A stretch of DNA of 46,332 bases, taken from an uncultured SAR86 cluster bacterium. Lineage in GTDB: Bacteria; Pseudomonadota; Gammaproteobacteria; Magnimaribacterales; D2472. Shown here piece after piece: positions 7,059 through 45,617 of this stretch. Position numbers and translations under genes: made by a program. The notes under the pieces were generated by a model. It saw nothing but the letters and a program-made list of their open reading frames with translations. It was not told the origin of the DNA and did no database searches. How positions within the stretch are numbered: position 1 is the stretch's first letter; every line of letters begins with the position of its first letter. The stretch is from NCBI GenBank assembly GCA_902582355.1, contig CACHRR010000005.1:1-46332 (forward strand), written 5' to 3'.

Positions 7059-7631
7059 ATGACTATAGATGTCCAAAAAACTTTTTTGTCGTCCGTTTTA
7101 ATAATCACCCCTAAACGTTTTGAGGATGATAGGGGGTTTTTCGAAGAAACATGGAATTTATCATCTTTTAAAAAATATGGAATTGAAACTTCATTTGTCC
7201 AAGACAATCATTCTTACTCTCGCGAAATTGCTACGCTTAGAGGATTGCATTATCAATCTCCACCTTATGCACAAGATAAATTAGTAAGGTGTACTCAAGG
7301 TTCAATACTTGATGTTGCAGTAGACATCAGAAAAAAATCTCCGACATATGGTGAATGGATTGGGATAAAGCTATCAAGAAAAAATGGTAAGCAATTATTG
7401 ATTCCTAAAGGGTTTCTTCATGGTTTTGTGACACTTAGCGAAAATACTGAAGTTCAGTATAAATGTAGCAATATTTATTCATCTGACAATGATGGGTCCA
7501 TTTTATGGAATAGTCTTAATATTGATTGGGGATTATCTAATAATGTTATTCCGATTCTTTCTGATAAGGATAAATCTGCTCAAGCCTTTGAAAATTTTGT
7601 TTCGCCTTTTGAATGGGAGGGTGATATATGA
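7059..7631 (+). CDS. rfbC: dTDP-4-dehydrorhamnose 3,5-epimerase
   Basis: Third step of dTDP-L-rhamnose synthesis: double epimerisation of dTDP-4-keto-6-deoxyglucose. Cupin-fold RmlC signatures are [34 protein letters not shown] (catalytic His near residue 63), [18 protein letters not shown] and IPKGFLHGF. At 190 residues it is full length. The stop overlaps the rfbB ATG by four bases. The four rhamnose genes run C-B-D-A with overlaps throughout. Confidence 0.96.
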
Positions 7632-8677
7632 AGATACTAATAACTGGAGGAGCTGGGTTCATTGGTTCTGCTGTAATAAGAGTCGCGATATCTAGAAATC
7701 ACCAGGTTGTCAATGTTGATTCTTTAACATACGCAGCATGCTTGGATAATTTAGTATCAGTGGAGAGTAAGGAAAATTATTTTTTTGAAAATGTTGATAT
7801 CTGCAATCAAAAAGAACTTAATAGAATTTTTTCTTTATACGAACCAGATGCTGTCATGCATTTAGCTGCTGAATCTCACGTTGATAGATCTATAGAAAAC
7901 CCTAGACATTTTATTGAAACGAATATTGTTGGTACATTCAACATGCTTGAATGTGCTAGAAATTACTGGACTTACAACGGAATGCCTAATAATTTTCGTT
8001 TTCACCATATATCTACTGACGAAGTTTTTGGATCTTTGCCCAGTGAAAAATCTGTTAAGTTTCATGAGAAAACCTCTTACGATCCAAGAAGTCCCTACTC
8101 AGCTTCAAAGGCTTCTTCAGATCATTTAGTTCGAGCTTGGAAAGAGACATATAATCTACCAACTTTAATTACGAATTGTTCGAATAATTATGGTCCGTAT
8201 CATTTTCCTGAAAAACTCATACCTGTTGTAATTTTAAATGCATTAGCCGGAGAACCAATACCTATATATGGTAATGGTGAGAACATAAGGGACTGGCTTT
8301 TTGTTGAGGATCATGCAGATGCACTTTTATTGGTGCTTGAAAAAGGTATTGTTGGGGAAAGTTATAATATTGGTGGTGAAAACGAATGCACAAATATAAA
8401 TTTAGTTAATATGATTTGTGAAATTTTAGACAAAAAAAGACCAAAAAGTGCTGGTAGTTATGGGGATCAAATTGTTTTTGTAGAAGATAGGCCTGGTCAT
8501 GATTTGAGATACGCAATTGACCCATCTAAAATTTATAATGAATTAGGATGGCGACCTTCTACTTCACTCAAAGAAGGATTATCACATACTGTGCAATGGT
8601 ATCTAGATAATGAATCATGGTGGAGGCCGTTACTTGATCGGAATGGCATTGGCTCTAGATTAGGTTTAAATTTATGA
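7628..8677 (+). CDS. rfbB: dTDP-glucose 4,6-dehydratase
   Basis: Second step of dTDP-rhamnose synthesis, an extended short-chain dehydrogenase. Seen: the NAD-binding GGAGFIG near residues 7-13, the active-site TDEVFG near 130 with its Asp-Glu pair, the YSASK catalytic Tyr-Lys near 157-161, and [33 protein letters not shown], which are typical of RmlB. The 349-residue length is normal. ATGA overlaps couple it to rfbC before and rfbD after. Confidence 0.97.
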
Positions 8678-9546
8678 CAGTATTAGTATTTGGAAAAACA
8701 GGTCAATTAGCTTCAGAGCTCATGAAGCTTATGAAAAAAACAAATCATGAGCTTGTTTTTTTTGATAGACAAAAAGCTAATTTATTAAATCCAAATGCTT
8801 GCAGTGATTTAATTATCAAGTTCAAACCTAATGCAGTTATAAATACAGCAGCATGGACTGGCGTTGATGCAGCAGAAAATCATGAATACGATGCTAGCCT
8901 TATTAATGGTAAGTCACCTGGAGCAATGGCTAGAGCATGTTATAAATTGTCAATACCAATTTTGCATATCTCTTCTGATTATGTTTTTAGCGGAGATGGT
9001 AATATTCCATGGAAATCTAGTGATTTGGCGAGACCGCTAGGTGCATATGGTCGATCAAAACTTTTAGGTGAAAAATTAGTTCATGAAAGCGGCGCTAGAT
9101 ATATTATTTTAAGAACAAGCTGGATTTTTTCATCGCATGGGTCTAATTTTGTAAAAACAATGCTTAATTTAGGAAAAAAAAGAGAATCTCTTGATGTAGT
9201 TTGTGACCAAATCGGCGGCCCTACTTCAGCCAAATCAATTGCAAATACATCTATGATTCTTGTTGAGGCATTGCTTAATGGAGATTTAGGCGGTATATAT
9301 CATTATTCCGGCACACCCGATGTAAGCTGGGAAGAATTCGCTAAAACTATAATGATTAAATCGGGCATAAATTGTAAAATAAATTCAATTTTCACTAAGG
9401 ATTATCCTACTCAAGCACCTAGGCCATTAAATTCAAGACTGAACGGAGATACACTTTTGAAAAAATTTAATATAAAAAAGTCTGATTGGATTTCAGATCT
9501 TGAAGCAGTAATTTCAGAGTTACAAGGAATTCAGCATGAAGCGTAA
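8674..9546 (+). CDS. rfbD: dTDP-4-dehydrorhamnose reductase
   Basis: Final step to dTDP-L-rhamnose: NAD(P)H-dependent reduction at C4. The N-terminal nucleotide-binding motif is [33 protein letters not shown] (Tyr-Lys pair near residues 124-128), RTSWIFS and FVKTML are standard RmlD sequence. The 290-residue length is normal. The 3' end overlaps rfbA by 11 bases. Confidence 0.96.
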
Positions 9547-10408
9547 AGGTATTATCCTTGCTGGTGGCTCTGGAACTCGTCTTTGGCCAATAACTATGGG
9601 AGTTTCAAAACAGCTGCTACCTATTTTCGATAAACCAATGATTTATTATCCATTATGTGTTCTTATGTCAGCAGGCATTAAAGAAATTGCTGTAATCACC
9701 ACTCCCGATGAACAATCGCAATACCGTCGTTTATTAGGTGATGGCTCACAGTGGGGTTTGAGTTTGACTTACATAGTTCAACCGTCTCCAGATGGACTTG
9801 CTCAAGCATATATTTTAGCTGAAGATTTTTTAATTGGATCGCCTTCTGCACTTGTTCTCGGTGACAATATTTTTTATGGTCACGGATTAGCAAAAATTCT
9901 TGAAAATGCATCTCTTTCACTCACTGGGGGCACTGTTTTTGGATATCATGTGAGTGATCCTGAAAGATACGGTGTTGTTGGTTTTGATAATAATGGAAAA
10001 GTAAATGTCATTGTTGAAAAACCGGAAAATCCTCCATCAAATTTTGCAATAACAGGCCTTTATTTTCTCGATCATAGCGCTTCTGAAAGAGCTAAGAATA
10101 TAAAACCTTCATCCAGAGGTGAACTAGAAATAACATCTCTTTTAGAGTCTTATTTAGAAGAGGGCAGCCTTAATGTTGAGACTATGGGCAGAGGAATTGC
10201 TTGGTTAGATACAGGAACTCATTCTAGCATGCTAGATGCCAGTAATTTTGTTCGTACAATTACGGAAAGACAAGGTATGCAGGTGGGGTCTCCAGATGAA
10301 ATTGCTTATAGAAAGAAGTGGATTACAAAAGACGTACTTAAAGAGAGAGCTGAATTATTTAGTAAAAATGATTATGGTCATTTTCTTAATGAGTTAATTA
10401 ACAAATGA
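9536..10408 (+). CDS. rfbA: Glucose-1-phosphate thymidylyltransferase
   Basis: First step of dTDP-rhamnose synthesis: glucose-1-P plus dTTP gives dTDP-glucose. The N-terminal GGSGTRLWP signature motif, KQLLPIFDKPMIYYPL, LGDNIFYGHG and the C-terminal GRGIAWLDTGTH are characteristic of RmlA. The 290-residue length is normal. It completes the four-gene rhamnose set. Its stop overlaps the ATG of a possible 32-codon membrane ORF. Confidence 0.97.
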   Translation: MKRKGIILAGGSGTRLWPITMGVSKQLLPIFDKPMIYYPLCVLMSAGIKEIAVITTPDEQSQYRRLLGDGSQWGLSLTYIVQPSPDGLAQAYILAEDFLIGSPSALVLGDNIFYGHGLAKILENASLSLTGGTVFGYHVSDPERYGVVGFDNNGKVNVIVEKPENPPSNFAITGLYFLDHSASERAKNIKPSSRGELEITSLLESYLEEGSLNVETMGRGIAWLDTGTHSSMLDASNFVRTITERQGMQVGSPDEIAYRKKWITKDVLKERAELFSKNDYGHFLNELINK

Positions 10409-33692: not shown

Positions 33693-34418
33693 ATGTCAGA
33701 GGATAAAGACATTATTTTCTCCCATTCCAAAAATTCAGTTGGTAATAGCCATCCTATTAATAATATGAAAGATCATATAATGTCTTTGCTCAACGATTTT
33801 GGTTTTAAAATTATTTCTGGTCCAGAGATTGAATCCGAAGAAAATAATTTTGATTTGTTAAATATTAAAAAATCGCATCCTGCAAGACAAATGCATGATA
33901 CTTTTTACATTGAAAATAAATCAAAAGTTCTACGAACACATACATCTCCAGTTCAAATTAGAGGTATGCTAGAAAATCAACCCCCATTTGCTTTTATTTC
34001 AGGAGGAAAAGTATACAGAAAAGACGATGATGCTACCCATCTGCCAATGTTTCATCAAATTGAGGGTATGTTAGTAAATGAAAATGTAAATTTTGCTCAA
34101 CTAAAGGATCTAATATATAAAATAATATTTGCTTTATTTGGTGAAAAATCAAAAATCAGGTTTAGACCATCATACTTTCCCTTTACAGAGCCATCAGCTG
34201 AAGTAGATATTTGTTCTGAAAATGGAGATTGGCTTGAAATTCTTGGGTGTGGAGTTATAAATCCTGTCGTACTTGAGAATTGCAATATTGATTCATCGAA
34301 ATTTTCAGGACTAGCTTTTGGTCTTGGAATCGAAAGAATTGCTATGCTTAAACACGGCGTAAGTGATATCAGACATTTTTATAAATCAAATTTAGACTTT
34401 CTTGAGCAATTTAAATGA
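33693..34418 (+). CDS. pheS: Phenylalanyl-tRNA synthetase alpha subunit lacking the N-terminal coiled coil
   Basis: Class II synthetase catalytic subunit. Present: HPINNMKDHIMSLLNDFGF, GPEIESEENNFDLLNIKKSHPAR (motif 1 region), RTHTSPVQIRGM (motif 2), HQIEGMLV, FRPSYFPFTEPSAEVDI and GLAFGLGIERIAML (motif 3). It has only 241 residues against about 327 in E. coli. The missing part is the whole N-terminal helical coiled coil of about 85-90 residues that contacts tRNA-Phe. rplT ends 11 bases before the ATG, so there is no room for it. The stop overlaps the pheT ATG (ATGA). Confidence 0.95.
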   Translation: MSEDKDIIFSHSKNSVGNSHPINNMKDHIMSLLNDFGFKIISGPEIESEENNFDLLNIKKSHPARQMHDTFYIENKSKVLRTHTSPVQIRGMLENQPPFAFISGGKVYRKDDDATHLPMFHQIEGMLVNENVNFAQLKDLIYKIIFALFGEKSKIRFRPSYFPFTEPSAEVDICSENGDWLEILGCGVINPVVLENCNIDSSKFSGLAFGLGIERIAMLKHGVSDIRHFYKSNLDFLEQFK

Positions 34419-36325
34419 AAATTTCATATAAACATATTATCCGTTGCCTTGAAGAAAAACCTTCACTTAAAGACCTGTCTGAAAAATTATTTCAATTAGG
34501 CCATGAACATGATGTTGAAAATGATATATTTAATTTTGAATTTACTCCAAACAGAGGAGACTGTTTGTCAGTCAATGGAGTAATAAGAGACTTAAGTGTT
34601 TTCTATAAAAATAAAAATAAGCCACTAATTTATGACAACGCCATACCTAACTTGGATATAAATTTCAGTAACTTATCAAAAGATTCATGCCCCTCAATTA
34701 GTTTTATTAGAATCAAAGTTCAAAATGTTCATTCTGAATACAAAGAATATTTAAATAGTTACTTCGAAGATCTGAACATAAAAAAGAATAATTTCTTTAC
34801 TGACATTTCAAACTATATTGCTTATGAGCAAGGTCAGCCTGTCCACAGTTATGATTTTAATTTAATTAATGGCCCCATAATATTAAGAAACTGTCAAAAT
34901 GAAAATGAAAAATTTCTGACATTGACAAATACGGAAATAGAACTTCATAAAAATGATTTAGTTTTTTATGATGACGAAGGACCTATTAATCTTGCTGGAG
35001 TCATGGGCGGCAAGAGAACATCATGTTCAAAAGATACCAATGATGCATTAATCGAATGTGCCTACTTTAAACCAGAATTTATAATTGGGAAATCTGTAAA
35101 GTATGATTTACATTCTGATGCATCTCATAAATTTGAGAGAAGTGTTGATCCGTTATGTCATGAGAAGACTCTTAGAAGATTTATTCAAATTGTCCAAGAT
35201 CATGCTGAAATTTTTCAGGTTGAAATATTTTCTGAGCCTAATGCTAAATATAAAAAGACTGAAATAAATTATGACTTAGATTTAATAAATAAAATCCTAG
35301 GAACTGAAGTAGAAGAACAAGAGTTTGTAAATATTTTAAGTAGTCTTGATTTTAAATTTGATGGATCAAAAATAGTTGTTCCATCATATAGAAGTGACAT
35401 TTCGCATCAAAATGATCTAGCTGAGGAAATAGCAAGAGTTATTGGATACAACAATATAGAATCAAAAAGTATATTACTGAATAAGTCTTTAGACAAAAAT
35501 TCAAGTGATATTGAAAGACAAATAAAGTCATATTTAATAAATAATGGTTTTTATGAGGTAATAAATATGCCGTTTAATGCATTTCAAACCAATCAATCGA
35601 TTAAGGTTGATAATCCCCTTGACTCAAACAGAGAGTTTTTAAGAACTGAATTAGTTCCTTCACTAATTGAAAATGTTGTATTCAATGAAAAAAGACAAAA
35701 AGAATCAGTAAAATTTTTTGAAATCTCTGATATATATATTTTAAAAAATAAAAAAATTTCTTGCGAAAGAAGACTTGGTCTAGTAGTTTCTGGCAGACAA
35801 GGCTTGAGTCATCAAGAATTCTCAAAAAAGTTAGATAAAAAATATTTAGTTAAATTATTTAATTCTATTGGTATAAACTTAGAGCAACATATTTTGTTAA
35901 TAGATAGGGACAAAATAGATTCAAAAATAAAAACACCGATATTTGCATTTGAAGTTCCATTAGATGATTTTCCCAAGATCACTGGTGAGCTTGAAACTTC
36001 ATTGATTTCGAAAAGTTCTTTTGCTAAATATAAAGAAGTATCTGATTATCCATCAAGTTATAGAGATTTTTCATTTTCGATTGAAAATAAAAAAGATATT
36101 CCTAAATTATACAAATGTATTGAAGAAACTAATGTTGAGTTTCTCAAAGACTATTTCATTTTCGATTATTATGAAGATATTCATAATAATAAAACCAAAG
36201 TTGGATATAGATTTATTTTTCAATCAAATATAAAAACTTTAAAAGACGAAGAAATAAATAATTCTGTTAATAATTTACTAAAACCAATTTTATCTATAAA
36301 TTCAATTACAGTTCCAGGCCTTTAG
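34415..36325 (+). CDS. pheT: Phenylalanyl-tRNA synthetase beta subunit lacking the EMAP/OB tRNA-binding domain
   Basis: 636 residues against about 795 in E. coli. The sequence runs from the first segment (MKISYKHIIRCLEE ... LFQLGHEHDVEND) straight into FNFEFTPNRGDCLSVNGVIRDL, which in E. coli lies about 110 residues further on. The inserted OB-fold tRNA-binding domain is therefore gone. The B3/B4 editing domain (ISNYIAYEQGQPVHSYD, INLAGVMGG, SDASHKFERSVDP), the B5 domain, the catalytic-like core and the C-terminal anticodon-binding FDX-ACB domain (YPSSYRDFSFSI ... KVGYRFIFQS) remain. It is coupled to pheS. No ihfA follows. Confidence 0.95.
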   Translation: MKISYKHIIRCLEEKPSLKDLSEKLFQLGHEHDVENDIFNFEFTPNRGDCLSVNGVIRDLSVFYKNKNKPLIYDNAIPNLDINFSNLSKDSCPSISFIRIKVQNVHSEYKEYLNSYFEDLNIKKNNFFTDISNYIAYEQGQPVHSYDFNLINGPIILRNCQNENEKFLTLTNTEIELHKNDLVFYDDEGPINLAGVMGGKRTSCSKDTNDALIECAYFKPEFIIGKSVKYDLHSDASHKFERSVDPLCHEKTLRRFIQIVQDHAEIFQVEIFSEPNAKYKKTEINYDLDLINKILGTEVEEQEFVNILSSLDFKFDGSKIVVPSYRSDISHQNDLAEEIARVIGYNNIESKSILLNKSLDKNSSDIERQIKSYLINNGFYEVINMPFNAFQTNQSIKVDNPLDSNREFLRTELVPSLIENVVFNEKRQKESVKFFEISDIYILKNKKISCERRLGLVVSGRQGLSHQEFSKKLDKKYLVKLFNSIGINLEQHILLIDRDKIDSKIKTPIFAFEVPLDDFPKITGELETSLISKSSFAKYKEVSDYPSSYRDFSFSIENKKDIPKLYKCIEETNVEFLKDYFIFDYYEDIHNNKTKVGYRFIFQSNIKTLKDEEINNSVNNLLKPILSINSITVPGL

Positions 36326-36403
36326 AAATCCGTATTTTAAGTTCAATAACATTAAAAACATTGCATTTATAACATACTTATTATTAAAACTGCGTATTTA
36401 AAA

Positions 36404-36451
36404 CGACACAAATTCGACACAAAAACTTTTACTTAGTTTCGCTTGTTTACA
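36404..36451. repeat. Left copy of a short boundary repeat (CGACACAAA x2 and TGTTTACA)
   Basis: CGACACAAA occurs at 36404-36412 and 36415-36423, followed by TGTTTACA at 36444-36451, just upstream of the large lipoprotein gene. Read on the other strand this is TGTAAACA then TTTGTGTCG twice. The same layout, with TTTGTGACG, recurs in the opposite orientation at 41631-41672, beyond the 3' end of that gene. It resembles paired arm-type sites of a tyrosine recombinase, but this is inference. Confidence 0.5.
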
Positions 36452-36482
36452 TCAAAAAAAATTATGTTTATTATTTCTACAT

Positions 36483-39400
36483 ATGTACAAAAAATTACAT
36501 CTATTCATCTCTTTATTTATAATAGCTTCTTGTGGTGGTGGAGGTGGTGGTGGCGGAAACACTCCAACAACTCCTTCAACTCCAGCTCCAACTGTTAATT
36601 TATCAGCTGAACCAACATCCGTTTTAGTTGAGAATACTTCTACACTTACTTGGTCCTCTAGTAATGCCACTTCTTGTTCAGCATCTTGGACAAGTCAAAC
36701 AGGTACCTCTGGTTCAGAAGCAGTAACCATTACTTCAGCTGGTAACAATAGTTTTTCAATTTCTTGTAGTGGTGATGGCGGATCAGGATCTACATCTGTT
36801 ACTGTTGAGGGGTATAGAGAAACAGATGGCGTAGTAGTTGATGGTTATATTTCTGGAGCAGAAGTTTTTATTGATGAAGATGATAACTGGGTATTAGACT
36901 CAAATGAAAATTCAACCACTTCAGATAATGAGGGTAAATTTACCATCCGTTATGCTAACGGAAATTTAGTATCCATCGGTGGTACCGATTTAGATTCTCA
37001 AACTCTTTTAGATAATCTACTCATTACTCATAAACTTACCGGTCATTCAGACTTTAAAACAGTTACTCCGGTAACCTCTATTGCAGCCTTTATGGAAGAT
37101 GCATCATTGGTCAATTCAGCATTAGGAATAGATTCATCCATTGATGTTTTTACCTTTGATCCTGTTGCTAACAAAGGCGATGGTGGTATTAACGACTATC
37201 TATATGAGAAAGGTAATCAGTTAACAGTTTTAGCTTTTGCTCTGCAAAACATAACTAATAATCTCAACACAACCACAGAAACAACCCAAGACTATTTCAA
37301 AGCTATTACTGAAGAAATAGAAAAAGAATATACTGAAACTGAAACCAAGGTGGATATTGAAACCGAAGCTTTTGTTACTAAAGCACTGGACAATGTAATC
37401 GCAGCAAAATCAGTAACCATTGATGAGGCAGCTAAAGAAAATGTTACTAAAATAATTTCAGGAATGCTGCCAATCATTCAAGTTAAATCCTCTGATGATT
37501 TAACTACAGCAGTTATACGTTTTGCCCTATCAACCCTGCAAACTGATATCCAGGCTATTGCTAATGGTACTGCAGCCGCTGAGACAGTGACTAGTTATAC
37601 CGAAGACCTGCTCAATTACATAGCAGAAGATCAAAACATAGATTCAAGCAAAATAGCACCCGATATCAATGCAATAGCCGATAACGTAAGTACATCTGAG
37701 GATACTGAAGTAGAAATCAATGTACTCTTAAACGACTCTTATGTTACTTCATCCTCATTCTCATTATCAGCAACTAATGGCATTAACGGATCAACATTAA
37801 TATCTAATAACTTAATAACTTACTCTCCTGATGAAGATTACAACGGTAGTGATTCCTTTTCCTATACCATCACTCAAGGTGATAAAACTTCCAGTGCTGA
37901 TGTCACAGTAACGATTGAAGCAGTTAACGATGCACCGTCTATTGATATAACATCTACTATTCAGGCAGCTGAAAACCAAACAGCAGTAGCAACTATTTCA
38001 GTTTCAGATGTAGATGAAGATGAACTAACCCTAACTTTAGGTGGCACAGATGCTGACAGCTTTAATTTATCTGACGAGAATGTCTTAACTTTTAAAGAAG
38101 CTCCTGATTATGAAACTAAAGATTCATACTCAATAACACTGACATTAACCGATGGCACTGAGACAGTAACAAAAGATGTCACTATTGCTATAACAAATGT
38201 AAATGATATTGCTCCTGAGTTTACTTCTGATGCTAGTTTTTCGATCGAAGAGAATGAGGTATCAGTAGGTACAATAACTGCAACAGATGCTGAAGGAGAT
38301 AATGTATCCTTTTCAATATCCAGTTCTGAGCTAGCTATTACCTCAGAAGGAGTTTTAACTTTTGTATCAGCTCCTGACTATGAAACTAAATCAGAATATA
38401 CAGCAACTGTTACAGCAAGTGATGGGGTTAATGAAACAACTCAAGATATTTCCATAACCATTATTAATGTCAATGATAATTTTCCACTATTTAGTTCTTC
38501 GACTACATTTAGTGCAGATGAAAATCAAACAGCGGTTGGAACTGTCACTGCAACTGATGCAGATGGAGATGGCATAACCTTAACTATATCAGGCACGGAA
38601 TTAGAAATTACCTCAGCAGGAGTTTTAACTTTCGTATCAGCTCCTGACTATGAAACTAAATCAGAATACACCGCAACTGTTACAGCAAGTGATGGCGCTA
38701 ATTCTTCTACACAAGTTATAACTGTAAAAGTTATTAATTTAAATGATAACGACCCAAGATTTTCATCAGATCCTACTTTTAGTTCAAATGAAAATCAAAC
38801 AGCGGTTGGAACTGTCACTGCAACTGATGCAGATGGAGATGAAATAACATTCTCTATATCCGGTTCTGAGCTAGCTATTACCTCAGAAGGAGTTTTAACT
38901 TTTGTATCAGCTCCTGACTATGAAACTAAATCAGAATATACAGCAACTGTTACAGCAAGTGATGGGGTTAATGAAACAACTCAAGATATAACAATTAATA
39001 TAATTAACTTAATAGAAATCACAGCAGAAGAAAAAATCAATATTAATGAAAATACTCAAACTGCTGACTACAATATTACAGATGCTGGGGGTTCAAGTAT
39101 TGATCTTGAAATAATCAGAGATTATGGCAAAGACTTTACGCCTACAAATACAATTGGTAATTCTGACGGAACTAATTTTGTTCTAAACGATGATATTGTA
39201 ATTAATGATGGTGAGATATATCAGGCACTTTCTGATATTCAAATTGGTGGTGGTGCATCAATTACTATTAAAGCAGGCGGTAAGTTAATTAGTAGGTATG
39301 TTGAAGTTGATGGGTCATATTCAAGACCGCCTTTTTCAACCGGCACAACATTCTCAAATACATATGGTGAGGGAATTGTTCTAGTTTCGAATGATGGAAC

Positions 39401-41471
39401 AAATTATGAAGAAGAAAATTCTGTAGGAAATCAAAACATATTACTTTTTGATGGCTCATCTTTTGTTGTTGAAGGCACTAAAGATAACCCTGCTGAGATT
39501 AGAAATATATCAGTTGCTTTCGCTACCAAAGAAACATCAGATAATGCCTCAATCAATATTGATTATGTAAATTGGAGAGGCGGATCATTACATCCGTATT
39601 TCTTCTACAGAACTAATGCTCAATCAAGCTATATTCGTGGTTCGCTTAAATTAACTAATTCTTATTTAAGTTTTGTTAACTCAGTTAATCTCATGAGACT
39701 TGATAGAAGAGGGCGCTCAGAAGATATTATTATTGAAGATAATGTTTTCCATAACTCAGGAGGATTTTCTTTAGACTTTAATTACCAAACCTCCGGATTG
39801 CTCAGAATTCAACGTAACCTATATTTTGGAGAAGACGTTTATAGAACCAATAAACCAGCTTTCTTATCAATTGGTATTACTGGAGGAACTTCTCAACAGT
39901 ATCCAAAACACACTGATGATAGAACAAAAGTTTTATTCAAGGATAATGCGATATTAGCAACACCAAATTCTAGTAAAGCGATTTATTGTGAGGGTTATGA
40001 TCCATATGTTCCATGGGAAGGAAATTATTTTGGGTATAGAGCTGACTTTGAAAATACGGTAAGAAAAACTATTACCGATAAAAGTACTGATTTATCCAAA
40101 ACATGCAGTTATCCAAACTCTTTAATTTTATTAGAATCTCCAAGAACATGGGATGTGAGACCTGATTTCTATTTTACAGAAGATAATAAAATCATCATGG
40201 ATGTTCCTGTTGATTACGAGTCAGCTACTAATAAAGTAATACCTTTTAACATTAAAGCTACGAATAGCAATGAAGAGTCTAAAGTTCTCGACATGCAAAT
40301 GACAATTATAGATGTTGACGAACCGGCTGAACCTATAATCAGTGATATTCTCGATCAGATATCAGTGCAAGAAAATACTGTTTTTGTTAGTAACTTTAGT
40401 GTCCAATCTGATTCCAATGATTCTGTAACAATGTCTCTCAGTGGAGATGATGCAGATAAGTTTGAAGTTTCCTCTAACAACTTACTAGCATTTAAAACAG
40501 CACCTAATTATGAGGTGCCAACGGATACCGATACTAATAATGTTTATAAAGTAACTTTAACAGCTAGTACTGGCTCAGCATCAGCTTCATTGGACATTGA
40601 GGTAACAGTTACCAATGCCGTAGAAGAGACAAATCCGCCAGTTCTGTCAGATTTTTCTTTTTCAGTTTCTTCAGTTGACGTCTCATCTGAATCAAAAGAC
40701 GTAACTATGACAATGAAGGTAACAGATGCCTCAGGTGTAACAGTAAAAAATGATTCTCGTCTGCAACCATCAGGTTTTTCCGCAGCGAGTATTAATTGTG
40801 GTGTTATGACATTAATTTCTGGAACAAACAAAAATGGAACCTGGTCAAGCACATGCACCGTTCCGCAAGGCCAGGCTTCAGGTAATTACTCTTTCCAATC
40901 ATCAACTTTTGAAGATGCAAACGGAATAGGATCAATCTGCTATACATCTAATACAACCGGTAGTATATGCCATCCTGCAGGAACCCAAGTTTTACTTGCT
41001 GTTACCAATGATGCAGCATCATCAACAATATACTATTTATATGGAGGTTCTGATGGATCAGATTATTTAGGTAGTTATGGAGGCACTGACACTGCATCAG
41101 ATTCTATATGTAATACAGTTGGCACTTACGGAAGTAATGTAAGCTCTTCAAGTATATGGAATACTGTTGGTTCTTATGGAAGTACAGTTGGCACTTATAG
41201 TCCTTGGAATTCAGTAAGCACAAGTCCTCCTGAGTTCTTTAATCAAGATAAGACAACTACCTACGGGAAGTTCACTGTTAATACTGCTACAGCAAATAGA
41301 ACAACAGTGACAAAGTTAACCAATATCATTGACTACTTTAATAACAATTCAAGTGATATAGCTGCTACAAGAGAATATGCATGTGAACAAACTCAGTCAG
41401 CCGCACCGATTAATAGTCTTTCATCAGATAAACCAAATTTAAACCTTTCAAATAAAGTCATATTTGATTAA
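36483..41471 (+). CDS. Giant cadherin-repeat surface lipoprotein
   Basis: 1662 residues. The signal peptide ends in a lipobox (IIASC, Cys17), followed by an eight-Gly run and a Pro/Thr linker. Then: an Ig-like segment (about 38-112), an acidic module with DGYISGAEVFIDEDDN (about 118-160), a helical region (about 220-395), a cadherin-like/VCBS-like domain (about 395-480) and four 90-residue cadherin repeats (about 481-842) with NEN..VGT and TATDADGD calcium motifs. A Gly/Asn-rich beta-helix-like part (about 845-1240), another cadherin repeat (about 1285-1380), a further Ig-like domain and a YGSxxxxYSPWN-type C-terminus (about 1515-1600) follow. It is probably an adhesin or surface matrix protein. 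No Shine-Dalgarno is evident. Confidence 0.9.
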   Translation: MYKKLHLFISLFIIASCGGGGGGGGNTPTTPSTPAPTVNLSAEPTSVLVENTSTLTWSSSNATSCSASWTSQTGTSGSEAVTITSAGNNSFSISCSGDGGSGSTSVTVEGYRETDGVVVDGYISGAEVFIDEDDNWVLDSNENSTTSDNEGKFTIRYANGNLVSIGGTDLDSQTLLDNLLITHKLTGHSDFKTVTPVTSIAAFMEDASLVNSALGIDSSIDVFTFDPVANKGDGGINDYLYEKGNQLTVLAFALQNITNNLNTTTETTQDYFKAITEEIEKEYTETETKVDIETEAFVTKALDNVIAAKSVTIDEAAKENVTKIISGMLPIIQVKSSDDLTTAVIRFALSTLQTDIQAIANGTAAAETVTSYTEDLLNYIAEDQNIDSSKIAPDINAIADNVSTSEDTEVEINVLLNDSYVTSSSFSLSATNGINGSTLISNNLITYSPDEDYNGSDSFSYTITQGDKTSSADVTVTIEAVNDAPSIDITSTIQAAENQTAVATISVSDVDEDELTLTLGGTDADSFNLSDENVLTFKEAPDYETKDSYSITLTLTDGTETVTKDVTIAITNVNDIAPEFTSDASFSIEENEVSVGTITATDAEGDNVSFSISSSELAITSEGVLTFVSAPDYETKSEYTATVTASDGVNETTQDISITIINVNDNFPLFSSSTTFSADENQTAVGTVTATDADGDGITLTISGTELEITSAGVLTFVSAPDYETKSEYTATVTASDGANSSTQVITVKVINLNDNDPRFSSDPTFSSNENQTAVGTVTATDADGDEITFSISGSELAITSEGVLTFVSAPDYETKSEYTATVTASDGVNETTQDITINIINLIEITAEEKININENTQTADYNITDAGGSSIDLEIIRDYGKDFTPTNTIGNSDGTNFVLNDDIVINDGEIYQALSDIQIGGGASITIKAGGKLISRYVEVDGSYSRPPFSTGTTFSNTYGEGIVLVSNDGTNYEEENSVGNQNILLFDGSSFVVEGTKDNPAEIRNISVAFATKETSDNASINIDYVNWRGGSLHPYFFYRTNAQSSYIRGSLKLTNSYLSFVNSVNLMRLDRRGRSEDIIIEDNVFHNSGGFSLDFNYQTSGLLRIQRNLYFGEDVYRTNKPAFLSIGITGGTSQQYPKHTDDRTKVLFKDNAILATPNSSKAIYCEGYDPYVPWEGNYFGYRADFENTVRKTITDKSTDLSKTCSYPNSLILLESPRTWDVRPDFYFTEDNKIIMDVPVDYESATNKVIPFNIKATNSNEESKVLDMQMTIIDVDEPAEPIISDILDQISVQENTVFVSNFSVQSDSNDSVTMSLSGDDADKFEVSSNNLLAFKTAPNYEVPTDTDTNNVYKVTLTASTGSASASLDIEVTVTNAVEETNPPVLSDFSFSVSSVDVSSESKDVTMTMKVTDASGVTVKNDSRLQPSGFSAASINCGVMTLISGTNKNGTWSSTCTVPQGQASGNYSFQSSTFEDANGIGSICYTSNTTGSICHPAGTQVLLAVTNDAASSTIYYLYGGSDGSDYLGSYGGTDTASDSICNTVGTYGSNVSSSSIWNTVGSYGSTVGTYSPWNSVSTSPPEFFNQDKTTTYGKFTVNTATANRTTVTKLTNIIDYFNNNSSDIAATREYACEQTQSAAPINSLSSDKPNLNLSNKVIFD
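38323..38989 (+). repeat. Recent internal duplications in the cadherin array
   Basis: Bases 38323-38449 and 38863-38989 are identical over 127 bp, exactly 540 bp (two 270-bp units) apart. A second exact match of 54 bp joins 38518-38571 and 38788-38841, 270 bp apart. Such identity without synonymous differences points to recent duplication or gene conversion between 90-residue repeat units. Confidence 0.95.
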
Positions 41472-41489
41472 GGGCTGTTTAGGTTTTAA

Positions 41490-41547
41490 TGGCGGTGAGA
41501 CCGAGATTCGAACTCGGGGTGCCATTGCTGACACACTTGCTTTCCAA
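41490..41547 (-). pseudogene. 3' half of a split tRNA-Ser(GGA)
   Basis: On the minus strand this reads anticodon loop TTGGAAA, 3' anticodon stem GCAAG, a variable arm with GTGTC/GGCAC, a perfect T arm (CCGAG-TTCGAAT-CTCGG), acceptor TCTCACC, discriminator G and CCA. The 5' half is missing: the bases before the loop are unrelated (ACCGGTG on the minus strand). The missing half is found 200 bp away on the + strand, and the two pair perfectly in acceptor (one G-T) and anticodon stems. It begins 18 bases after the lipoprotein stop codon. Confidence 0.9.
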
Positions 41548-41630
41548 ACACCGGTCTTCAAATAATATCGAAAAATTCTATTCTCCCCTATCCTTTTAAC
41601 AGCAAGGTTTATGAGATTGCTTAAAATCAT

Positions 41631-41672
41631 TGTAAACAGGTGATACCAGGTTGTGACGAAATTTGTGACGAA
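41631..41672. repeat. Right copy of the short boundary repeat (TGTAAACA and TTGTGACGAA x2)
   Basis: TGTAAACA at 41631-41638 is followed by TTGTGACGAA at 41651-41660 and again at 41663-41672. It mirrors the inverted set at 36404-36451 with one consistent base change (A for T in the core of each unit). Together the two sets bracket the lipoprotein gene and the tRNA-Ser 3' half. Confidence 0.55.
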
Positions 41673-41702
41673 TTAAATTTATGAGTATTTGTTTATGCGT
41701 TC

Positions 41703-41733
41703 TTGTTTATGTGTTTAAGTAATTGCGTATAAT
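41703..41733 (+). promoter_or_regulatory. Promoter of the split tRNA-Ser, now facing the export genes
   Basis: A consensus TATAAT at 41728-41733 lies nine bases before the tRNA-Ser 5' end, with TTGTTT at 41703-41708 as a possible -35 (19-base spacing, somewhat long). It is placed as for a stable-RNA promoter. Because the tRNA is broken, a transcript from here would run through the 5' half toward the wza-like gene at 41865. Confidence 0.55.
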
Positions 41734-41742
41734 TAGACTCCC

Positions 41743-41782
41743 GGTGAGGTGGGAGAGTGGTTTAATCCGCTTGCTTGGAAAG
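41743..41782 (+). pseudogene. 5' half of a split tRNA-Ser(GGA)
   Basis: Acceptor GGTGAGG, D arm (GAGTGGTTTAATCC), 5' anticodon stem CTTGC (41770-41774), the complete loop TTGGAAA (41775-41781) and one further G. After that the sequence leaves the tRNA (AGAATTATAT). Joined at the shared TTGGAAAG to the minus-strand 3' half, it gives a 90-base class II tRNA with a perfect five-pair anticodon stem and anticodon GGA. Confidence 0.9.
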
Positions 41783-41864
41783 AGAATTATATTTTCAATC
41801 ACCTCATATATATATTTTTTAGTTTATAATCTTCAATGAAACATTATGTAAATTTAATCTAAAG

Positions 41865-43610
41865 ATGAAAAATATTAATAAATTGTACGTATACATTTTG
41901 ACATTCTTTCTTTTTGCTACTTTTTCATATGCTCAAGACAATGAATATGACAAATCATTTCTTGAAAGCTTGCCTGAAGAGATCAGGGAAGATGTCATAA
42001 AAAGGGTTGACGAAAAAAATGATCTTGAAAAAGATGTTTACAGAAGCATTGACTCATCCAGTGATATTGAAAAGAAAGAATTCGATGAGTTTTTATTTGG
42101 GGCTGATTTTTTTGATACTATGCAGACCTCCTTTATGCCAGTTAATCTCCCAAATTTAGATGATGATTACGTTCTAGATAATGGAGATATTCTTAGCATA
42201 CAACTTATTGGCCAAAAGGATTCGACAGACTCTTATCAAATTGCAAGAGACGGCTCGATTAATTTGCCAGATATTGGTAAGTTACAACTTTCAGGCCTTG
42301 CTCTTGCAGAAGCATCTAAACTTATTATTTCTAAAATAAAGCAAGCATATATAGTAGTTGATGTATACATCACTTTAGAAAAAATAAGAGATATTAATAT
42401 TCTTGTATCTGGAAATGCTTACAATCCAGGCGTATATACTCTTAACGGAAATTCCAATATGCTTCATGCACTTCATGCTGCAGGTGGAATTAATGAATAT
42501 GGAAGTTACAGAAGTATAAAATTAATTAGGGATGAAAAAGTCATAGATACTCTTGATATCTACGATATTTTAATTGAAGGAAATTTTAATTCAAAAACTC
42601 GTTTACGAAGTGGAGATATGATTTTTGTTGATCCTAGATCAAATGTAGTTACTTTAGAGGGAGCTTTCAAAAGAAGCTCTCAATATGAATTACTTGAAGA
42701 CCAAAATTTATATGATGTTATTCCTTACGCAAACGGCATAACAACGACAGCAGACTTGTCAAACATATTCTTGTATCGATTATTAGATGGAGAGATTAGA
42801 GATATTCTAATAACAAATATCAATCAGTTTAAAACCATTAAAGCAAAAGATTTAGATCGAATCTTCATAAGAGAGTACAGTTTTAGAAATGTTCAAATTA
42901 CAGGTGCAATTCTTAGACCAGGAAATTATAAGATGGTTGAAGGCGAAAATATTTTTGACCTTATTGAAAGATCAGGGGGATATACTCAAAATGCCTTTCC
43001 TGAAGGAGCTATATATCTTAATGAGGATGCATTAGAAATTAATAAGATTGCACTAGAGAAACTTTACAATGATTTTATAGATGGCTTGCTAAGTATTATA
43101 CAAAAAAGTGGTTCATCTGATGCAGATTTTCAGTCTCTAGTGGCTATATCAAATGAGTTGAGAGAAGCTCAACCAAATGGAAGGATAATCATAGATCTGA
43201 AAAATGACAACTTTCGAAATTTAGTAAAGAATAATGATAAATTATATATTCCGGAAATAAATAATAATATTTTTATCTTTGGCGAAGTTTTAAATGAAGG
43301 CCCTCTTCTATATAGCAATGGAGCGAATTTAAATTACTATTTAGATGAAGCTTCGGGATTAAAGGAATCTGCAGATAATGATAAGATTTATATTCTTTAT
43401 CCAAATGGAAGAACAAAGCAATTTTCAAGAAAACGTAGTTTATTTGCTACTCAATCACAAAAAGTGCTTATTGAGCCAGGTTCTGTGATTTACGTGCCAA
43501 GAAAAATTGATAGCACATTGTCCTCAAGGCTTACCGCTCAAGCATATGCAACGATTTTAGGTAACATTAGCATAGCTTTAGCTTCCATTTCTTCAATAAA
43601 TAATAATTAA
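41865..43610 (+). CDS. Wza/GfcE-like outer-membrane polysaccharide export protein with SLBB domains
   Basis: 581 residues. The signal peptide (about 1-23) ends SYA-Q with no lipobox Cys, unlike Wza. The poly-export domain (about 100-175) has YVLDNGDILSIQLIGQ and IARDGSINLPDIGKLQLSGLALAEAS. Several SLBB (beta-grasp) repeats follow: INILVSGNAYNPGVYTLNG, LEGAFKRSSQYEL, VQITGAILRPGNYKMVEG and IFIFGEVLNEGPLLYSNG. A hydrophobic C-terminal helix (about 555-575) could form the outer-membrane pore as in Wza. The YjbH-like gene ten bases downstream suggests a group 4 capsule (gfc)-like export pair. Confidence 0.85.
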   Translation: MKNINKLYVYILTFFLFATFSYAQDNEYDKSFLESLPEEIREDVIKRVDEKNDLEKDVYRSIDSSSDIEKKEFDEFLFGADFFDTMQTSFMPVNLPNLDDDYVLDNGDILSIQLIGQKDSTDSYQIARDGSINLPDIGKLQLSGLALAEASKLIISKIKQAYIVVDVYITLEKIRDINILVSGNAYNPGVYTLNGNSNMLHALHAAGGINEYGSYRSIKLIRDEKVIDTLDIYDILIEGNFNSKTRLRSGDMIFVDPRSNVVTLEGAFKRSSQYELLEDQNLYDVIPYANGITTTADLSNIFLYRLLDGEIRDILITNINQFKTIKAKDLDRIFIREYSFRNVQITGAILRPGNYKMVEGENIFDLIERSGGYTQNAFPEGAIYLNEDALEINKIALEKLYNDFIDGLLSIIQKSGSSDADFQSLVAISNELREAQPNGRIIIDLKNDNFRNLVKNNDKLYIPEINNNIFIFGEVLNEGPLLYSNGANLNYYLDEASGLKESADNDKIYILYPNGRTKQFSRKRSLFATQSQKVLIEPGSVIYVPRKIDSTLSSRLTAQAYATILGNISIALASISSINNN

Positions 43611-43619
43611 TGATACTTA

Positions 43620-45617
43620 ATGCTAGCTCAAAAATTATGTACTTATTTTTTGCTAAAAAATTTACTTAAAAAAGAAAAATTAGCACTTCCTCTATTTTTT
43701 CTATCCCTTTCAGTAGCTGGAGATAGCTTTGATTACAATACATATAATAATTATGGAGTCGTTGGTCTTATCAATATGCCAAGCGCAAGATTTTTTGAAG
43801 AATCAGTCCATGGAGTAACTTTATATGACGGAACTCCTGATAAAAAAATTACATTAACATCTAATCCATTTGATTGGATGGAGGCATCTTTTTTTTATAC
43901 CAGTATTCAAAATAAAAGATATTGCTCAGTAGATAGTGACCCTATTTGTGCACAAGACTTTAAGGATAAAGGTTTTAATGTCAAGTTAAGACTCAAAAAA
44001 GAGGGCATTTTACCTGCAATTGCTATAGGAGCAAACGATCTTGCTGGCACCGGGTTATATAGTTCTGAATATATTGTAGGTAGTTATGGCATTAACAATC
44101 TTGATTTTCATTTTGGTCTAGGTTACGGAACTATGAATTCTATAAAAAATAGTGTAAAAAATCCTTTAGGCTATCTTAGCGATAGCTTTAAAAATAGGCC
44201 ATTAGAATATGAAGATTTAGGAGGTAGTTTTCAACCGAGTAGATACTTTTCAGGTGAAAGGGTATCCCCTTTTTATGGCATAAGCTATAGTTTAAACAAA
44301 AAAACTCTTGTAAAACTTGAAAGAGATACCACAGCAAATGATGTGGTTATTGAATATGATAATCCTAAATCAGATTACTCATTTGGAGTTGATTATTCAA
44401 TAACTAAGAATTTTTCTATTGGTATATCATATGAAAGGGGTATCTATACTTCCATAAAATTTATTTATAAAAATAATCCCAAAACTTCAATTAAAAAGTA
44501 TCAATATAAAAAAGCTAGTAATATTGAAGAGGATAATAAGTACACAAAGTTTATTAAAAATTTAGAAGAAAATGGCATTGGAGTAAATAAAATATCTGAA
44601 ACTACAAGTTCAATAGGTGTCGAATTAACACAATTGATTCATCCAAACTTAGGCTTAATTGAAGAAATCATATCATCTGCGGCAATGGATGCCGGTATTT
44701 ACAAAAACATAAAAAAAGATCTTAAAATTGCAGATTTAAACGCAGTATCAGAAATTGATAGCAATTTTGAGAAAAACGCGAATTTAATATACGAAAGAAA
44801 GAGTACTAAAAACTTTAATACAAAAACAGGGATTAAATTTAGACCATTTCTTGCATCAAGAGAAGAATTTTTTAAAGGCGCAATTTTATTGGAGAATGAT
44901 AGTGAATTTATCTTGAGAGATAATTTATTTTTCAACATAAATTTAAAATACTCTTTAGCAGATAATCTTGATGATCTAATATATCCTCCTGTTGATACTT
45001 TTCCTGCTCAAGTCAGATCAGATATTAAAGAGTATTTAAAAAATATGCATGAAGAGGGAATATTAATTGGAAGGGCCCAGTTAGATTACCATTTCACTCC
45101 AAAAAAGAATCATCATTTAATGATTTCAGCTGGTATTTTAGAGGATATGTTCTCTGGTTATGGATTTGAATATCTTTATTTTAAGTCGAATTCTAATTAT
45201 GCAGTTGGTTTTGAATTATTTGAAGCTCATAAAAGAGACTATAAATGGAAATTTGGAACTTTAAACTATAAAAACTTAACTGGATCAATAAATTTTTATT
45301 ATAGAAACTATGGCTATATACCATTTGATATGAAGATATCCTATGGTGAATACTTAGCAGGAGACATTGGATCAACAGTTGAATTTTCAAGAACATTTGA
45401 AAATGGAACACAATTTGGTGTTTTTGCTTCTAATACTGATGTTACTACAGTTCAGTTTGGTGAAGGTTCCTTTGACAAAGGAATCTTCTTTAATATACCA
45501 ATTTATAGCAATTTTATTAACTATACTTGGAGACCATTAACAAAAGACCCAGGCGCTAAGCTAAATAGAAAACATTCTTTATACGATTTGTTAGTAAGAT
45601 TTAGACCCATTAATTAG
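43620..45617 (+). CDS. YjbH/GfcD-like outer-membrane protein
   Basis: 665 residues with an N-terminal hydrophobic signal (about 22-34, LALPLFFLSLSVAG). The YjbH family pattern is clear: NYGVVGLINMPSARFFEES, NPFDWMEASFFYTSI, FKDKGFNVKLRLKKEGILPAIAIGANDLAGTGLYSSEYIVGSYG and FHFGLGYG. The remainder is rich in alternating beta-strand sequence (GISYSLNKK, FGVDYSITKNFSIGISYERG) and ends in RFRPIN, as expected for a beta-barrel. The family is linked to exopolysaccharide or group 4 capsule secretion. No Wzc kinase or Wzb phosphatase gene is adjacent. Confidence 0.85.
   Translation: MLAQKLCTYFLLKNLLKKEKLALPLFFLSLSVAGDSFDYNTYNNYGVVGLINMPSARFFEESVHGVTLYDGTPDKKITLTSNPFDWMEASFFYTSIQNKRYCSVDSDPICAQDFKDKGFNVKLRLKKEGILPAIAIGANDLAGTGLYSSEYIVGSYGINNLDFHFGLGYGTMNSIKNSVKNPLGYLSDSFKNRPLEYEDLGGSFQPSRYFSGERVSPFYGISYSLNKKTLVKLERDTTANDVVIEYDNPKSDYSFGVDYSITKNFSIGISYERGIYTSIKFIYKNNPKTSIKKYQYKKASNIEEDNKYTKFIKNLEENGIGVNKISETTSSIGVELTQLIHPNLGLIEEIISSAAMDAGIYKNIKKDLKIADLNAVSEIDSNFEKNANLIYERKSTKNFNTKTGIKFRPFLASREEFFKGAILLENDSEFILRDNLFFNINLKYSLADNLDDLIYPPVDTFPAQVRSDIKEYLKNMHEEGILIGRAQLDYHFTPKKNHHLMISAGILEDMFSGYGFEYLYFKSNSNYAVGFELFEAHKRDYKWKFGTLNYKNLTGSINFYYRNYGYIPFDMKISYGEYLAGDIGSTVEFSRTFENGTQFGVFASNTDVTTVQFGEGSFDKGIFFNIPIYSNFINYTWRPLTKDPGAKLNRKHSLYDLLVRFRPIN

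Follow-up and report, generated by a model that had tools for sequence, protein, structure and literature searches.

Small inversions that involve tRNA genes have been described in fern chloroplasts, in which a small inverted segment contains the trnD-GUC tRNA gene; this gene is inverted as a whole and stays intact (PMC2706227). The passages on tRNA inversions in two fern-chloroplast papers describe no split anticodon loop. Breaks at the anticodon loop are known from the tRNA islands collected in Islander, for which this loop is a crossover subsite and whose integration into a tRNA gene leaves a regenerated tRNA gene and a displaced fragment (PMC4383910). tRNAs that are encoded in two pieces are represented by the split tRNAs of Archaea and the permuted tRNAs of algae (PMC3218864, PMC3978253). 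Short inverted repeats, which enclose a small segment, are also a hallmark of the invertible promoters outlined for the capsule loci of Bacteroides. Another invertible promoter of comparable layout is fimS.

Here, we describe a tRNA-Ser(GGA) gene of an uncultured SAR86 cluster bacterium, which is split through its anticodon loop into two halves on opposite strands. The window, that is, the whole stretch of DNA that was analysed, has a length of 46,332 nucleotides and corresponds to one contig (C5) of a genome of 965,743 bases, which consists of 22 contigs and is 80.38% complete. Among the open-access papers listed for this subject, no title or abstract opening reports a bacterial tRNA split by inversion through the anticodon. 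As in the fern chloroplasts, the proposed small inversion involves a tRNA gene; its breakpoint, however, falls within the anticodon loop, so that the gene is divided in two. The position of the break and the displaced tRNA fragment are shared with the Islander islands, but the locus contains neither a regenerated intact tRNA nor an island between the halves, the two halves lie on opposite strands rather than in the same orientation, and no integrase was found, the only PF00589 match in the available 80% of the genome being a XerD-like protein. Like the invertible promoters, the locus has a small segment that is flanked by short inverted repeats, contains a promoter-like hexamer and precedes a surface-polysaccharide gene; in contrast to them, the repeat comprises just 8 to 11 nucleotides, one of its copies lies inside a tRNA, and a search for PF00589 in the same 80% of the genome revealed no dedicated invertase. 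The tRNA is encoded in two pieces as in the split and permuted tRNAs, whereas the genome is bacterial, the sequences beside the split lack leader/trailer complementarity, and the halves, which are 195 bp apart and overlap in an octamer, do not show the order of a 3' half upstream of a 5' half on the same strand. Finally, chimeras that arise during MDA resemble the locus in their inverted joins at short homology and over a short distance, but have one junction and an intervening deletion (PMC1855051), whereas two reciprocal junctions without loss of any tRNA base are found here.

Two tRNA halves and the geometry of the proposed inversion

The 3' half of the tRNA-Ser(GGA) gene is located on the minus strand (41490 to 41547) and extends from the octamer over the variable arm, the T arm and the acceptor strand to the encoded CCA. 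The 5' half is located on the plus strand (41743 to 41782) and contains the acceptor strand, the D arm and the anticodon stem through the octamer. Both were assigned by sequence, by BLAST and by running ARAGORN on the joined gene. The overlap of the two halves is exactly TTGGAAAG, the anticodon-loop octamer, which is present as a whole in each of them. When the halves are joined on paper, ARAGORN calls the resulting 90-mer tRNA-Ser(gga) with a GGA anticodon, a 7-pair acceptor stem including one g+t pair, a 3-pair D stem, a 5-pair CTTGC/GCAAG anticodon stem, a long variable arm, a 5-pair T stem and CCA, that is, with the features of a tRNA-Ser(GGA); all stem pairs are intact and not a single one is decayed. 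In the present state of the locus, no tRNA is called by ARAGORN or by Rfam at its gathering threshold, and the only tRNAs detected by these programs within the window are one Cys and one Leu. BLAST (E ≤ 0.001) places positions 30 to 90 of the joined gene at 41490 to 41550 with 98% identity and positions 1 to 40 at 41743 to 41782 with 100% identity, each of them once in the 966-kb genome. The halves complete one another throughout the stems and share exactly one octamer, which excludes a chance match. The split tRNA-Ser(GGA) is thus genuine at the sequence level, and the earlier note, which was made from the bare letters, described the positions and strands of the halves, the common octamer, the perfect anticodon stem, the acceptor stem and the encoded CCA correctly.

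The two copies of TTGGAAAG form an inverted repeat with the left copy at 41540 to 41547 on the minus strand and the right copy at 41775 to 41782 on the plus strand. A repeat search extends them to 11 nucleotides with one mismatch (41540 to 41550 and 41772 to 41782), so that the repeat is either 8 nucleotides, exact, or 11 nucleotides, with arms 221 to 227 bp apart. Both junctions together delimit a putative inverted segment of 243 bp (41540 to 41782), which includes the 195-bp non-coding spacer (41548 to 41742) and the 5' half of the tRNA. If this segment is flipped on paper, an intact tRNA gene appears on the minus strand and both odd junctions vanish together. A single inversion between the octamers is the simplest rearrangement that explains both junctions; it accounts for them as one event with matching inverted repeats at the two breakpoints, and no base of the tRNA is lost. 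The coincidence of both tRNA breakpoints with an inverted repeat is not due to chance. For 1.8% of 20,000 octamers sampled in the window, an identical inverted copy lies no more than 300 bp downstream, which means that substrates for such an inversion are common. A repeat of 8 bp is, however, short for unassisted recombination inside cells.

It had also been proposed in the earlier note that the inversion would restore a minus-strand tRNA together with its own promoter. The restored gene was confirmed on paper, whereas the promoter is weak: a TATAAT on the plus strand (41728 to 41733) is a candidate -10 element of the tRNA and is now oriented to read across the 5' half in the direction of the SLBB gene, but no acceptable -35 element was seen, and the site is not listed by the promoter scan, which reports only two other sites compared with 2.2 expected by shuffling. 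The proposed inversion is known from one genome only. With BLAST of the joined gene, neither the uninverted state nor a near-identical intact copy was detected in 33 relatives of the genus or in 202 relatives of the order, and exact and relaxed patterns of the intact 5' part of the tRNA are absent from the genome contigs collection.

Gene neighbourhood of the tRNA halves

The tRNA halves are located at the right end of a stretch of 5539 bp (36326 to 41864), which was delimited by gene coordinates and by comparison within the genus. It is preceded by pheT (34415 to 36325, plus strand) and followed by an SLBB/Poly_export polysaccharide-export gene (41865 to 43610, plus strand) and by YjbH (43620 to 45617). 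The main cargo of the extra 5.5 kb is one large gene on the plus strand (36483 to 41471) encoding a cadherin/Ig-repeat protein of 1662 amino acids with a lipoprotein-like start; the two tRNA halves and the 195-bp spacer between them are also located in it. The end of the cadherin/Ig-repeat gene and the CCA of the 3' half are separated by 18 bp. Eight glycines directly follow the lipoprotein-like start of the encoded protein, and no viral relatives of its middle 391 amino acids were confirmed. According to a reading of the ORFs, a long surface-polysaccharide gene cluster (4104 to 31862) with dTDP-rhamnose-type genes (7059 to 10408), sugar epimerases, glycosyltransferases and a flippase is located upstream of the infC-rplT-pheS-pheT block.

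The stretch is absent from all relatives in which the interval could be assessed. In 21 of 21 relatives of the genus that have pheT and the SLBB gene on the same contig, the gap between the two genes is only about 66 to 309 bp; these values are approximate, as they were derived from match coordinates and corrected for unmatched N-termini. The other 12 of the 33 relatives could not be used, since pheT, the SLBB gene or both were not detected in them. Among the 21, pheT was matched only in part in G043 and G049, and divergent export proteins are found in G013 and G049 (24 to 32%), G012 (34%) and G006 (37%). ARAGORN detected no tRNA around the pheT/SLBB loci of the relatives. Because the gap is so short and free of tRNAs in every assessable relative, parsimony suggests that the stretch, and the tRNA located in it, was gained by the lineage studied here. 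The comparison of this interval with close relatives, which had been envisaged in the earlier note, was thus possible for 21 genomes; all of them lack the entire 5.5-kb stretch and have no tRNA at this site, hence they are unable to show the uninverted state, and the intact gene was not seen.

The source of the tRNA was also searched for among mobile elements. A phage or viral origin was considered and rejected, as the joined gene has no match in 50,697 phage records, and the viral contigs contain no exact match to a 23-base pattern of the 5' part or a 27-base pattern of the 3' part. The single plasmid match is weak (72% identity, in a 972-kb record of Pseudomonas amygdali).

tRNA-Ser(GGA) in the genome and its relatives

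Rfam detects 23 tRNAs in the genome, a single one of which is a serine tRNA, named Ser(tga) by ARAGORN. Of the serine isoacceptors considered in the earlier note, Ser(TGA) is thus present, whereas a second, intact Ser(GGA) was not found by Rfam, ARAGORN or BLAST in the 966-kb, 80%-complete genome. Ser(GCT) was likewise not found among the tRNAs of this 80%-complete genome; since it is also unseen, the absence of a tRNA here is weak evidence, and an intact Ser(GGA) gene could exist in the missing 20% of the genome.

Ser(GGA) genes are scarce in the genus. A pattern search combined with ARAGORN identified them in five of 33 relatives (G009, G011, G014, G021 and G040) and in one of the six relatives with a completeness of at least 90%. 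The raw pattern count was 10 of 34 genomes, from which the genome under study, matched by its 3' half, was left out together with G042, G019, G022 and G004, where the pattern matches at sites at which ARAGORN calls no tRNA. The relatives of the genus are 60 to 96% complete, so that absence from any individual genome is a weak argument. The pattern is not blind, because it recovers every one of the 12 distinct Ser(GGA) genes obtained by an order-wide BLAST; these stem from the 15 relatives matched, with three duplicates left out, most of their sequence is common to all, and three of them are genes of the genus that were also found by the pattern itself. A pattern that covers only a single Ser(GGA) type matches three of the 33 relatives. 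The order-wide BLAST of the joined gene yielded matches in 15 of 202 relatives with identities of 71 to 89%, five of which cover only part of the gene. Across the whole gene, the joined tRNA is 63 to 76% identical to the genes of 14 relatives and 63 to 74% identical to the five genes of the genus. The octamer TTGGAAAG is missing from the Ser(GGA) gene of one of the 14 relatives (L048).

The distribution of Ser(GGA) within the genus is patchy, with at least two distinct sequence types among the five of 33 relatives, which suggests that this isoacceptor has been lost or gained repeatedly. In two loci, those of G021 and G009, a reading of the ORFs shows that the neighbours of the Ser(GGA) gene are queF-like and MarR-like. 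In G011, tRNA matches of identical score recur two to three times within a few kilobases (C2:76225-88489 and C1:288570-315908), which may reflect a local assembly duplication.

Eighteen ORFs of the window contain 174 UCU, 30 UCC, 211 UCA and 29 UCG codons. A modified Ser(UGA) is able to read the whole codon box, a wide wobble for which cmoA and cmoB are needed. Given that only five of 33 relatives, and one of six at a completeness of at least 90%, show the gene, the lineage seems able to manage without Ser(GGA). This weakens the suggestion of the earlier note that the cell would need to flip the segment back. Judged from these comparisons, the tRNA-Ser(GGA) is probably an acquired, dispensable extra that was recently broken; the recent date is suggested by the fact that no stem pair has decayed. 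Based on the intact stems, the break would be young, or reversible, or not real, and the absence of decay is equally compatible with an artefact or a reversible switch.

Possible origins of the split gene

Our preferred reading, to which we assign a probability of roughly one half, is that a horizontally gained and dispensable tRNA-Ser(GGA) gene was split when the segment between two inverted 8-bp repeats flipped in a one-off event. A minus-strand tRNA-Ser(GGA) would have been acquired as the rightmost part of a 5.5-kb insertion, consisting of the cadherin-like gene and the tRNA, between pheT and the SLBB gene. Its anticodon-loop octamer would by chance have had an inverted copy around 230 bp away, upstream of the tRNA, and one strand-switch or short-homology recombination between the octamers would have flipped the 243-bp segment. 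The 3' half would have stayed in place, while the promoter and the 5' half moved to the opposite strand; the gene would now be a two-piece pseudogene, and the UCC and UCU codons would be read by the remaining Ser(TGA) isoacceptor. The likeliest explanation is a modest one, namely the breakage of a non-essential, acquired isoacceptor gene by a small one-off inversion, or else an artefact of the assembly. A real and fixed split would illustrate one route by which an isoacceptor tRNA disappears from streamlined bacteria, namely a tiny inversion in the anticodon loop, which annotation programs would merely read as a missing gene; tRNAs reported as missing from draft genomes may hide in pieces.

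Amplified single-cell genomes are often fragmentary, and the 22 contigs and 80% completeness of the genome are in line with an artefact, in which the split would stem from strand-switching while the whole genome of a single cell was amplified with phi29, or from a chimera preferred by the assembler, whereas the true genome would carry an intact minus-strand tRNA-Ser(GGA). Such an origin would also agree with a tRNA without decay. Of 475 MDA chimeras analysed, 406 (85%) were inverted joins; such chimeras often form where short sequences of at most 21 bp are complementary, preferentially over short distances (PMC1855051), which would fit one of the two junctions observed here. However, the typical chimera described in that work has one junction with an intervening deletion, whereas the two reciprocal junctions of this locus use the same octamer pair; two chimeras, each outweighing the true path, or a double switch within one molecule would be needed, by our reasoning. 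We consider an artefact unlikely, albeit worth reckoning with. A reading closer to that of the earlier note, which had invoked site-specific inversion by a tyrosine recombinase, is that an integrase attacked the anticodon loop as attB and that a nearby inverted attP-like site led to inversion instead of integration, the enzyme having since been lost or being encoded elsewhere. Crossover centred on the anticodon is common for tRNA islands, of which 2083 are listed in Islander (PMC4383910), and tandem TTGTGWCG pairs are present near both ends of the stretch. On the other hand, the sole PF00589 match in the 80%-complete genome is a XerD-like protein, which scores 352.2 bits and thereby above the NCBIfam XerD cut-off of 329.6, but below the XerC cut-off (308.2 versus 335.15). 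Furthermore, none of the window ORFs (minimum lengths of 80 and 100 amino acids) resembles an integrase or invertase by eye, the second octamer lacks symmetric flanking arms by eye, and TTGGAAAG is absent from the left end of the 5.5-kb stretch. Site-specific inversion is thus not supported by these results, and a dedicated recombinase is likely to be absent, as judged by the PF00589 search across 80% of the genome, the missing 20% of which could harbour such an enzyme; a relic of this kind appears clearly improbable to us.

We give still less credence to a reversible switch, in which the 243-bp segment would alternate between production of tRNA-Ser(GGA) and a promoter reading towards the SLBB/YjbH polysaccharide-export genes. 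Such a switch is possible, and what speaks for it is the geometry: inverted repeats of 8 to 11 nucleotides, 221 to 227 bp apart, enclose a TATAAT that now faces a surface-polysaccharide gene. Inversion of promoters located before capsule genes is already known, and intact stems would be expected if the intact state were still in use. However, no invertase is found next to the segment by eye or in the available 80% of the genome by PF00589, the TATAAT has no -35 element and is unlisted by the scan, the 21 assessable relatives have no space for such a segment, and the SLBB gene has another TATAAT outside it. The more specific idea that crossover in the anticodon loop makes the tRNA one half of a phase-variation site, which exchanges tRNA-Ser(GGA) for a promoter into the polysaccharide-export operon, is very doubtful. 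If the inversion was reversible, the tRNA gene would act as a DNA switch, a case of which was not found, by title or abstract opening, among the open-access papers listed for this subject. Practically negligible is the idea that two transcripts are joined in trans to a functional tRNA. Split tRNAs occur in Archaea, and the halves can pair in a duplex of -29.4 kcal/mol, a figure given without shuffle control; yet the sequences beside the split, 60 bases downstream of the 5' half and 60 bases upstream of the 3' half, show no complementarity above that of shuffled sequences, 60% of 500 of which are at least as stable, and the genome is bacterial by gene content. Trans-splicing of tRNAs is not known from bacteria. 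Compared with these alternatives, the one-off inversion of an acquired gene remains our preferred reading, and the interpretation put forward in the earlier note is, as a whole, partly supported.

The second TATAAT (41825 to 41830) is located about 35 bp before the start codon of the SLBB gene; as it lies outside the inverted segment, it may serve this gene in either state and might be its native promoter. The tandem TTGTGWCG motifs have a period of 11 to 12 bp and are located on the minus strand at 36404 to 36422, near the left end of the 5.5-kb stretch, and on the plus strand at 41651 to 41670, near its right end. All four TTGTGWCG matches in the window belong to these two pairs; 0.92 matches were expected, the maximum in 200 shuffles was four, and a tandem pair occurred in none of the 200. 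At present, the pairs are inverted to each other, whereas they would have been parallel before the proposed flip. The tandem layout presumably resembles that of integrase arm sites, and the pairs could be arm sites of a recombinase or regulator sites upstream of two surface genes. Against the former, a local alignment between both motif regions gives a modest result, which 37 of 2000 shuffles equal, and TTGTGACGAA with at most one mismatch occurs five times in the window compared with 2.49 times in shuffles, which is not significant, as 12 of 100 shuffles reach five. Four forms of the tandem TTGTGACGAA were also searched for in viral contigs with regard to the arm-site idea, and the five loci obtained (L112 and L114 to L117) were treated as chance. 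These loci comprise phage-like genes and a region encoding a repeat protein, and inspection by eye revealed no integrase; in one of the loci (L115), a tRNA-Ser(tga) is located 3.4 kb from the motif.
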